From Baekduia alba (GTDB lineage: Bacteria > Actinomycetota > Thermoleophilia > Solirubrobacterales > Solirubrobacteraceae), in NCBI RefSeq assembly GCF_028416635.1, contig NZ_CP114013.1, forward strand, positions 2,976,001-3,040,000: 64,000 bases of DNA. Reading direction: 5' to 3'. Position 1 is the stretch's first letter, and each line of letters begins with the position of its first letter. Shown here piece after piece: positions 56,669-58,835 of this stretch. A model generated the notes under the pieces. The model did no database searches. It worked only from the letters and a program-made list of their open reading frames with translations, and was not told where the DNA came from. The position numbers and the translations under genes were made by a program.

Positions 56669-57574
56669 GTGGCCGCCCCTTCGCGACGTCCGCTGCGCAT
56701 CGGCATCCAACTCCCCGAGGTCGAGCGGCAGGTCCGCTGGCCGGAAGTGATGGCGATGGCGCGGGCGGCGGAGGAGTGCGGCTTCGACTCCGTCTGGCTC
56801 GGCGACCACCTGCTCTACCGCGGCGACGGTCGCCCCGAGCGCGGCCCGTGGGAGGCGTGGACCACGTTGTCCGCCTTGGCCGCCTCGACCGAGCGCCTCG
56901 TGCTCGGGCCTCTCGTCGCCTGTGCCGCGTTCCACCCGCCCGGCGTGATCGCCAAGATGGCCGCGACGATCGGCGACATCAGCGGCGGCCGCTTCGTCCT
57001 CGGCCTGGGCGCCGGGTGGAACGCCCCCGAGTTCTCCGCCTTCGGGCTCCCGCAGGACCACCGCGTCTCGCGCTTCGAGGATTCCTTCGCGATCGTCCGC
57101 GGCCTCCTGCGCGGCGAGCGCGTGACTCTGGACGGGACCTACTGGCAGGCCGACGACGCCGTGCTGGTCCCCGCGCCGGCCGCCCCCGTCCCGCTGATGA
57201 TCGGCTCCAACGGCCCGCGGATGCTGAGCATCGCGTTGCCCCACGCCGACGCCTGGAACACCTGGTACGACGGCTACGGCAACACCGCCGAGGGCTTCGC
57301 GTCGCTCAACACGCGGATCTCCGAGGCCGCGGTCGCGGCCGGCCGCGTCCCGGCCGAGATCACCCGCAGCGCCTGCGCGTTCGTGCTCGTCGACCCGTCC
57401 TCGGACGAGCGCGAGATCAAGCCCGAGGCGCCGCCGATCACCGGCACGCCCGCGCAGATCGCGGCGCGCCTGCGCGAGCTCCACGACGCGGGCGCCGACG
57501 AGGTCGTCCTGGTCGTCTCGCCGATCACGGAGGCGTCGATCCGCGCGCTGGGCGAGGCCGTCGCCGCGGTCTAG
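56669..57574 (+). CDS. LLM-class F420-dependent oxidoreductase
   Basis: A 301-residue luciferase-like barrel. Segments: RIGIQLPEVERQVRWPEVMA, EECGFDSVWLGDHLLYRGDG, RLVLGPLVACAAFHPPGVIA, ISGGRFVLGLGAGWNAPEFS, DGTYWQADDAVLVPAPAAPV, PLMIGSNGPRMLSIALPHAD. LGLGAGWN marks the F420 branch. GTG 56669 is the likely start. It converges on the borosin methyltransferase gene with a shared CTAG stop, so it is not in that operon; a functional link is possible but unsupported. Confidence 0.88.
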   Translation: MAAPSRRPLRIGIQLPEVERQVRWPEVMAMARAAEECGFDSVWLGDHLLYRGDGRPERGPWEAWTTLSALAASTERLVLGPLVACAAFHPPGVIAKMAATIGDISGGRFVLGLGAGWNAPEFSAFGLPQDHRVSRFEDSFAIVRGLLRGERVTLDGTYWQADDAVLVPAPAAPVPLMIGSNGPRMLSIALPHADAWNTWYDGYGNTAEGFASLNTRISEAAVAAGRVPAEITRSACAFVLVDPSSDEREIKPEAPPITGTPAQIAARLRELHDAGADEVVLVVSPITEASIRALGEAVAAV

Positions 57575-58398
57575 GCGCGCGCGGTCTCCGGGATGGCGCG
57601 CTGCGCCTTGCGCAGCACGTAGGAGTCGCTAAGCCCGAGCTGCTCGACCATGGTGCGGTCGGCGAGCGCCGGCCGCGCGGGCAGCACGACCAGCGTCGAG
57701 ATCCCCGACACCGGCGCGCGCGGCAGGTCGGCGACGGCGACGCGCGCCATCAGCGGCGCGGTGATCGGGTAGCGCGCCGCCTCGTAGACGATCGCCTCGT
57801 GCTCGGCGCTGTAGGCCTGCGTGAGGTGCGCGGCGAGCAACTCGAGCCCGCGGATCGACGTCTCCGTCTCGTGCGTGAGCTGGCCGATGCAGGAGATCTG
57901 CCACAGCACGAGCGGGACGTGCTCGTCGAAGCGCCGGCGGTAGACCAGGAAGTCGGTCGCCTCGAAGGACTGGCAGCCGGTCGCGCCCGGGTCGATCCCG
58001 AGGTCGGCGAACAGGCAGTCCTCGGCCGAGACCCCGGGCAGCATCCCAGCCCGGTAGCCCTCCTCGCGCGCACGCCGCACGGCCTCGTGGCCGGGGTAGA
58101 CGAACACGCCCGGGTGGCCGTAGAACGCCGCGCAGACGTCCTCGCCCGCGCGGACGCACTCGAGGATCCGGTCGACCATCTGGTGGTAGGTCTCGATCCG
58201 CTGCTTGCCCTCGCCGTAGAGGTCGATCAGGTCCTCGGCCGACGGGTTGAGGTCGGCCAGCCAGCCCTTGGTGACCGGGTCGGTGACCACGTACAGGACC
58301 TTGGTCGCGTCGCGCAGCGCCGACTCGGTCTCCAACGTCACCTGACCCATCAGCTGGATGCCCGTGCCGACCACCCACAGGCTGCCCGGCCGCGCCAC
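57571..58398 (-). CDS. Split borosin alpha-N-methyltransferase (tetrapyrrole-methylase fold)
   Basis: A 275-residue SAM enzyme of the tetrapyrrole methylase superfamily, but its sequence follows the borosin (OphMA) branch rather than corrin enzymes. It has SLWVVGTGIQLMGQVTLETE (start), VLYVVTDPVTKGWL, FYGHPGVFVYPGHEAVRRAR, GMLPGVSAEDCLFADLGIDP and EATDFLVYRRRF. The residues reported as catalytic in OphMA (as I recall Tyr66, Arg72, Tyr76, Tyr98) align with Tyr61, Arg67, Tyr71 and Tyr93, a constant offset of five. The core peptide that follows this domain in fungal borosins is missing. Instead a separate precursor-like gene ends 6 bases upstream. GTG 58398 start. Expected reaction: iterative N-methylation of the precursor's backbone amides. 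Confidence 0.88.
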   Translation of the reverse strand: MARPGSLWVVGTGIQLMGQVTLETESALRDATKVLYVVTDPVTKGWLADLNPSAEDLIDLYGEGKQRIETYHQMVDRILECVRAGEDVCAAFYGHPGVFVYPGHEAVRRAREEGYRAGMLPGVSAEDCLFADLGIDPGATGCQSFEATDFLVYRRRFDEHVPLVLWQISCIGQLTHETETSIRGLELLAAHLTQAYSAEHEAIVYEAARYPITAPLMARVAVADLPRAPVSGISTLVVLPARPALADRTMVEQLGLSDSYVLRKAQRAIPETARA

Positions 58399-58404
58399 GG
58401 CCGC

Positions 58405-58641
58405 CTAGAAGTCCACGAGGATCGTGACGATGACGCGGATCCTGATCGCCGCGTCGGTCCCGCCGAGCTCGGTCTGGATGCGCCGCTCGTCCTGCGAGAG
58501 CAGCGCGAGCTTCTGGGTGTCCGACAGGCCCGCGCGGTCCATCGCCCCGACGGGATCCTCCAGGAACGAGTTGCGGGCGGACGGCTCCTTCGAGAGCCCG
58601 GTCAGGAACTCGTGGAAGGCCTTCGACGACGGTTCGGCCAT
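58405..58641 (-). CDS. Split borosin precursor peptide
   Basis: A 78-residue peptide. Residues ~6-60 form the helical recognition domain seen in bacterial borosin precursors and LigA-like small domains: KAFHEFLTGLSKEPSARNSF, LEDPVGAMDRAGLSDTQKLA, LLSQDERRIQTELGG. The tail, residues ~62-78, TDAAIRIRVIVTILVDF, is hydrophobic and beta-branched. It is the probable core, with VIVTILV the most likely N-methylated stretch. The start ATG 58641 has a consensus AGGAGG. The gene is followed after 6 bases by the methyltransferase. No protease or transporter gene for maturation is adjacent. Confidence 0.85.
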   Translation of the reverse strand: MAEPSSKAFHEFLTGLSKEPSARNSFLEDPVGAMDRAGLSDTQKLALLSQDERRIQTELGGTDAAIRIRVIVTILVDF

Positions 58642-58651
58642 GGTGGCGAAA

Positions 58652-58657
58652 CCTCCT
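58652..58657 (-). promoter_or_regulatory. Consensus Shine-Dalgarno of the borosin precursor
   Basis: AGGAGG on the minus strand, 10 bases before ATG 58641. It is a full match to the anti-Shine-Dalgarno complement, stronger than at most starts in the window. That fixes the precursor start and implies high translation of the substrate relative to its GTG-started methyltransferase. Confidence 0.8.
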
Positions 58658-58762
58658 GGGGTTGACGGGCGCGAGCCTCCCACGCGCATCCCGCCGCTGT
58701 CCAGTCCACTTCGTTAAGACCTGCGGAACGCTAAGCAACGATCAGCAACTATGGCCTGACAG

Positions 58763-58835
58763 TGGGCCGAGGAGGAGTCGAACCCCCATCGGACGGATTA
58801 TGAGTCCGCGGCTCTACCAGTTGAGCTACCGGCCC
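58763..58835 (-). tRNA. tRNA with CAU anticodon (Met elongator or Ile2)
   Basis: The minus strand folds as a full cloverleaf of 73 bases. Acceptor GGGCCGG/TCGGCCC (one G-T pair), D-arm GCTC...GAGC, anticodon stem CGGA/TCCG with loop CTCATAA (anticodon CAT), and T-arm GGGGG TTCGACT CCTCC. The discriminator is A and no CCA is encoded. CAU is read by elongator tRNA-Met or, after lysidine modification, tRNA-Ile2; I cannot decide between them. It lies upstream of the borosin operon on the same strand. Confidence 0.92.

Follow-up and report, generated by a model that had tools for sequence, protein, structure and literature searches.

A very probable split borosin locus, type IV-like, in Baekduia alba, and the diagnostic value of its active-site residues

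The window, a 64,000-nucleotide stretch of the Baekduia alba genome analysed here, carries two adjoining genes on the minus strand. The larger (57571..58398) encodes a 275-aa protein with a tetrapyrrole-methylase fold, assigned by Pfam and PDB searches to the borosin-type alpha-N-methyltransferases; no start codon precedes its GTG at 58398 in the open frame, which spans 277 aa. Upstream on the same strand lies the gene for a 78-aa split-borosin precursor peptide (58405..58641), whose stop (TAG, 58405-58407) ends six bases before that GTG. The precursor frame is open for 94 codons, and the sensible start, ATG 58641, is preceded at a distance of 10 nt by AGGAGG (58652..58657, minus), which reads like a ribosome-binding site. 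Precursor residues 4-59 (58465..58632, minus) form the leader, a predicted five-helix borosin-binding domain matching that of SonA, and the C-terminus (58408..58446, minus) is the predicted core peptide IRIRVIVTILVDF, so assigned from the short hydrophobic C-termini of many related precursors; nine of its 13 residues are hydrophobic and two are arginines. A tRNA-Met gene (CAT anticodon; 58762..58835, minus; ARAGORN) flanks the pair. A scan of eight flanking genes, those for F420- and luciferase-type, FHA, CoA-binding, thioredoxin-like and SDR proteins among them, revealed no dedicated peptidase or transporter/exporter.

The methyltransferase falls into the Pfam family TP_methylase (62.7 bits) and, as expected of a borosin alpha-N-methyltransferase, is homologous to SonM and OphMA over the whole domain. 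In a PDB sequence search its best relative was SonM (2e-61, match over residues 3-257), with OphMA at about 8e-59 (residues 3-257), dbOphMA at about 1e-58 and fungal MroMA at 7.5e-53; the first match outside the borosin enzymes, with none between it and MroMA, was a uroporphyrin-III methyltransferase at 0.0016. Aligned identity to SonM is ~42-43%, and searching the PDB with methyltransferase residues 3-103 alone brought out the alignments to OphMA, in which 47 of 99 residues are identical over 99 gapless columns (query 4-102). An AlphaFold2 model of the enzyme built from 13 sequences (pLDDT 82.7, pTM 0.62) reproduced the fold without the correct placement of the domains, and superposed poorly on SonM as a whole (TM 0.48, rmsd 15 Å), so that pocket geometry was left out of the evidence. 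The borosin type claimed in the original prediction is borne out, the only strong PDB relatives being SonM/OphMA and the adjacent gene encoding a precursor with a borosin-binding domain; the assignment is more strongly supported by these matches and by the neighbouring precursor than by the four active-site residues on which the claim had been built. We regard the pair as very probably a split (type IV-like) borosin locus of precursor and methyltransferase.

The active-site stretch of the enzyme (58120..58218, minus) contains the codons of Tyr61 (58216-58218), Arg67 (58198-58200), Tyr71 (58186-58188) and Tyr93 (58120-58122), located by arithmetic from GTG 58398. Counted from this start the four residues are indeed Y, R, Y and Y, and their codons lie within 58080-58220, where the original prediction had placed four catalytic residues at a constant offset of five from Tyr66, Arg72, Tyr76 and Tyr98 of OphMA. 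These OphMA numbers agree with passages of Song et al. 2018 (PMC6108569), and the offset holds at all four sites in an alignment without gaps; the printed PDB chain index runs one below OphMA numbering, and the register was fixed by the Y63F change in entry 5N0N. The methyltransferase thus carries the complete OphMA set. A constant offset within a single gapless alignment is one fact, not four independent coincidences, and the match to OphMA is far beyond chance on account of the whole-protein score rather than the offset. According to the same passages of Song et al. (PMC6108569), the substrate-contacting residues of OphMA are Tyr63, Tyr66, Arg72, Tyr76 and Tyr98; four of these five are kept in the window enzyme, in which Ile58 corresponds to the fifth contact, Tyr63. 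Also present are Phe99, Glu146, Trp166 and Gln167, whose counterparts make up the locks of SonM according to passages of the SonM study (PMC8429565), and from Arg67 on SonM numbering is identical to that of the window enzyme (R67, Y71, Y93, F99, E146, W166 and Q167).

Calling all four residues catalytic was right insofar as the set is functionally meaningful and wrong insofar as it treats the members as equal, as mutants of SonM and OphMA described in passages of two studies (PMC8429565, PMC6108569) indicate. The OphMA variants R72A, R72K, Y76F, Y98F and Y98A were unmethylated when purified, Y98A giving a single methylation upon long incubation, and Y63F and Y66F retained reduced activity (passages of PMC6108569). 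Losses of efficiency in SonM were 1.6-fold for Y93F, 14-fold for Y58F, 97-fold for R67K and 98-fold for Y71F, with traces of activity only in R67A (passages of PMC8429565). Miller et al., in passages of the latter study (PMC8429565), report that bacterial homologues retain the core-stabilising residues of OphMA, and conservation of the four residues is therefore expected in any member of the family. The conserved active site is consistent with an active enzyme, which is less than the direct support for activity claimed in the original prediction.

How far the residues and the offset are diagnostic was assessed in 88 distinct related loci besides the window, of which 12 came from a whole-genome search and 80, the best of 576 relatives, from scanning with sequence patterns, minus four duplicates (L031, L034, L043 and L067, identical to L013, L010, L011 and L014, respectively). 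In this sample, which includes the best 80 of 576, the full set occurs in 72 of the 88 loci, with Arg67 in 86, Tyr71 in 88, Tyr61 in 74 and Tyr93 in 88, the last count being biased in the scan rows by one of the two scan patterns, which includes Tyr93; in the rows found without that pattern, Tyr93 is kept in 12 of 12. In the 14 relatives without Tyr61 (again among 88 that include the best 80 of 576), the preceding residue is a tyrosine, beside a one-residue deletion, and position 61 is Asn in 13 cases (12 cyanobacterial rows and one Thioploca) and Asp in one cyanobacterial row. These 14 rows, mostly cyanobacterial, are L022, L023, L025, L028, L032, L033, L036, L037, L040, L041, L044, L046, L047 and L091; in all of them the first tyrosine is shifted N-terminally by one residue, in a shortened side clamp. 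Two Chloroflexota loci, L030 and L065, have Cys at column 67 (OphMA Arg72) and Arg one residue earlier.

SonM itself departs from the constant offset, as three extra residues in its side clamp, between Tyr58 and Arg67, leave Tyr58 shifted relative to window Tyr61. The pairwise alignments proposed as a check therefore gave a divided result, gapless with OphMA and interrupted in SonM by the three-residue insertion between the first two residues. Because this insertion and the shifted relatives break it, the constant offset is not a valid test of membership and was rejected as such: it fails on SonM and on 14 of 88 relatives (including the best 80 of 576). The proposal that a gap breaking the offset would refute the borosin type was likewise discarded, as it would wrongly exclude SonM.

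An ordinary tetrapyrrole-fold methylase (RsmI, a diphthine synthase, a YabN-type domain or an enzyme of cobalamin synthesis) that had kept some of the tyrosines by chance would share the Pfam family, and the best NCBIfam model for the window enzyme is in fact YabN (2.5e-9), though at 36.7 bits against a cut-off of 525; the cut-off for precorrin-2 methylase is not reached either (16.9 of 163 bits). The earlier expectation that the set should be missing from corrin and diphthamide methylases was supported by the controls of the same fold, 14 of 14 of which lack it: seven TP_methylase-fold proteins of the same genome, four YabN-type domains and three diphthine synthases. The last were aligned from four loci, L170 having no match to the borosin profile, and the YabN methylase parts were those of L114-L117, with a fifth methylase-part match (9.5e-28) and weaker ones left out; in a second YabN search all 33 matches cover the MazG part only. 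None of the seven own-genome paralogues has Tyr at any of the three Tyr columns, and in five of them an Arg can be aligned at column 67, amid gaps; the three aligned diphthine synthases lack all three tyrosines. In YabN-type domains, Tyr61 and Tyr71 are present in four of four, which favours the ordinary reading to that extent, but column 67 holds Phe or Tyr and column 93 Pro. Since the two tyrosines are shared in this way, only Arg67 and Tyr93 discriminate, and it is these two together that separate borosin enzymes from YabN. YabN-type methyltransferase/pyrophosphohydrolases have the same fold but bear a fused MazG domain, unlike the window enzyme, whose 275 aa hold the methylase domain only, and we know of no precursor for them. 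YabN rows also split off in the gene tree at 100/100 support, SonM and OphMA are more than 50 orders of magnitude ahead of any PDB corrin methylase, and a precursor gene adjoins the enzyme; with these observations set beside the missing residues of YabN domains and paralogues, the probability left to an ordinary methylase is close to nil.

The precursor was recognised at 3.2e-17 by a profile of 30 other precursors from which the window peptide had been omitted, and the same profile gave 2.5 for the runner-up among 789 six-frame window segments and 0.14 for the best of 2000 composition shuffles. This leave-one-out search is an independent check on the first profile, among whose seeds were the window precursor and seven others chosen by eye; the alignment used (A2) comprises 31 of 43 short-tailed precursors, visual inspection having removed 12 whose ends were long, truncated or otherwise odd. 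Searched against the PDB, the profile including the window precursor matched SonA at 6.2e-18, with a Shewanella precursor among the sequences of A2, and the clasp region of OphMA/dbOphMA (about residues 323-384) at 3e-4 to 7e-4. The precursor by itself reached SonA at E = 0.2 only, and the link thus depends on the profile. TAL-effector and other repeat proteins that appeared among the profile matches (PDB, 1.8e-9 and weaker) were set aside as repeat artefacts, no single stretch passing alone.

An AlphaFold2 model of the precursor from 31 sequences (mean pLDDT 76) has five helices (4-18, 20-28, 30-37, 41-49 and 52-59) followed by a low-confidence tail. Among PDB folds it is closest to SonA (TM 0.68 normalised by query and 0.80 by target), the leader of which is a five-helix bundle according to passages of the SonM study (PMC8429565); LigAB comes next, along with numerous further chains of SonA and of fungal borosins. 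The protein is short, and Foldseek found no match to the model better than 0.001, that to SonA standing at E 0.096. The window thus holds a separate adjoining precursor gene with a borosin-binding-domain leader, the arrangement of split (type IV-like) borosins. The fold match to LigAB, together with a Pfam LigA score just below its cut-off (23.7 of 25.3 bits; SonA itself is labelled LigA in the PDB), would also suit a small protein that serves as a regulatory cap, as LigA does on dioxygenases, on an enzyme acting mainly on another substrate, and that is no product precursor. The hydrophobic tail, however, resembles the cores of related precursors, and genes of the leader-plus-tail kind accompany the methyltransferase across phyla, and we hold a regulatory cap to be very unlikely. 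The precursor (58408-58641, minus) also resembles the NCBIfam IniB N-terminal domain (1.3e-6, 28.2 bits, cut-off 40), hinting that IniB proteins may share the borosin leader fold.

Pairing of a leader-type precursor with the methyltransferase is general and extends across phyla. Among 10,181 stop-to-stop segments from 93 loci, the precursor profile matches 77, of which 62 lie on the same strand within 1.5 kb of the methyltransferase and 15 within ~3 kb or on the other strand. With duplicates removed and the window included, 56 of 89 distinct loci have a leader-type ORF on the same strand no more than 1.5 kb away (upstream in 41); allowing ~3 kb and both strands brings the count to 71 of the 89. 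Among loci without a match, L014 and L017 hold a plausible precursor below the profile threshold. The leader shares an open frame with the methyltransferase in L074, L093 and possibly L056, L085 and L089, and in the first two it precedes the methyltransferase, the order seen in fusions that carry the substrate at the N-terminus. Precursor-like genes with long, repetitive tails (such as PPADE, GEHTGDD and TEHPP repeats) occur in L016, L019, L077, L081, L094 and L097 and upstream of the methyltransferase in L020; such genes are unlike the window precursor with its short, hydrophobic core. Five archaea-labelled loci (L048, L052, L055, L069 and L045) likewise combine a methyltransferase with a nearby leader-type ORF, on the other strand in L045.

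Among known systems the window most resembles SonM-SonA of Shewanella oneidensis (type IV split; passages of PMC8429565; PDB 7LTC-7LTS), in which methyltransferase and precursor are likewise separate. SonA has, and the window precursor is predicted to have, a five-helix leader joined to a short hydrophobic C-terminal core, although the cores differ in sequence and that of the window has two arginines; the precursor gene lies upstream in the window and downstream in a related Shewanella aestuarii locus (L090). In OphMA/dbOphMA (passages of PMC6108569; PDB 5N0N, 6MJF), of which the active-site half aligns so closely, clasp and core form one chain with the enzyme, in contrast to the two genes of the window. 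Beyond the genes, homology, residues and adjacency observed here and the leader fold as predicted, we infer leader binding, chemistry, iteration, direction and number of methyl groups by homology to SonM-SonA and OphMA. The 78-aa precursor would dock through its five-helix leader on a dimer of the 275-aa methyltransferase and thread the C-terminal core into the catalytic pocket. There SAM would donate methyl groups to the backbone amide nitrogens of hydrophobic residues in the core, probably in an iterative process running from the N- to the C-terminus. The amide would be held by Tyr61 and Tyr71, which would also stabilise it as an imidate, Arg67 would position Tyr71, core and clamp, and Tyr93 would have a role in SAM binding.

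The pair is a new member of a family already found in other bacteria and in fungi and nothing new in kind, split borosins having been described before (passages of PMC8429565) and being widespread in bacteria according to passages of a review (PMC11285071). Borosins have been sorted into types 0 to XI, and the window locus is type IV-like, the definitions of types IV to X in the relevant passages (PMC11395268) being too loose for one exact type here. No paper bringing together borosins and Thermoleophilia was found in the literature searched, which covers few subscription journals, and an earlier report is possible. Ribosomal peptides with N-methylated backbones are both rare and useful, the modification aiding protease resistance and membrane crossing, and the window pair offers a small enzyme-substrate system, open to experiment, whose core is new. 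Borosin loci are better recognised by Arg67, Tyr93 and an adjoining leader-type precursor than by the tyrosines or the offset alone.

The methyltransferase was found in none of the 100 nearest relatives, including six congeners. With at most six candidates scored per genome, 11 of 398 other members of the class had a match, ten of these belonging to a single other family, and none of 395 others in a phylum sample did. The highest identity of the window enzyme is 57%, to L010 of the same class; in the gene tree no well-supported set includes it, and the nearest by path is a cyanobacterial row. Transfer of the methyltransferase is suggested by its patchy distribution only. The same patchiness, with 0 of 100 relatives, and the small size of a locus of two genes only would fit a borosin locus intact in sequence yet silent or inactive in its host. 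This we consider unlikely, as both frames are intact with third-position GC usual for the region, a ribosome-binding-site-like sequence is present and the active-site columns are retained. An unusual base composition of the pair was looked for and not seen, third-position GC being 0.986 and 0.975 for the two genes and 0.944-0.988 in five neighbours.

Congener G006 keeps the flanks of the pair, namely a luciferase-like gene (75% identical), the tRNA-Met and a CoA-binding gene (73%), with a CHAP-domain gene in the slot instead of the borosin pair, and in congener G004 a glycosyltransferase lies near the tRNA-Met; the gene content of this slot varies within the genus. Integration at the tRNA-Met in the window itself was considered and dropped, as no att-like repeat backs it there, and no repeat of the tRNA 3' end of at least 14 bases was found elsewhere in the window. 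Tentatively, and with some doubt, the locus may be seen as a self-contained borosin cassette of Thermoleophilia in a variable tRNA-Met slot, yielding a new backbone-methylated peptide with a core of alternating beta-branched residues and arginines (IRIRVIV...) that is possibly membrane-active and matured by host proteases instead of dedicated ones. In congener G001 (L131 2850-4220) a phage-type integrase lies ~500 bases from the tRNA-Met, suggesting that this site is an integration hot spot in the genus.
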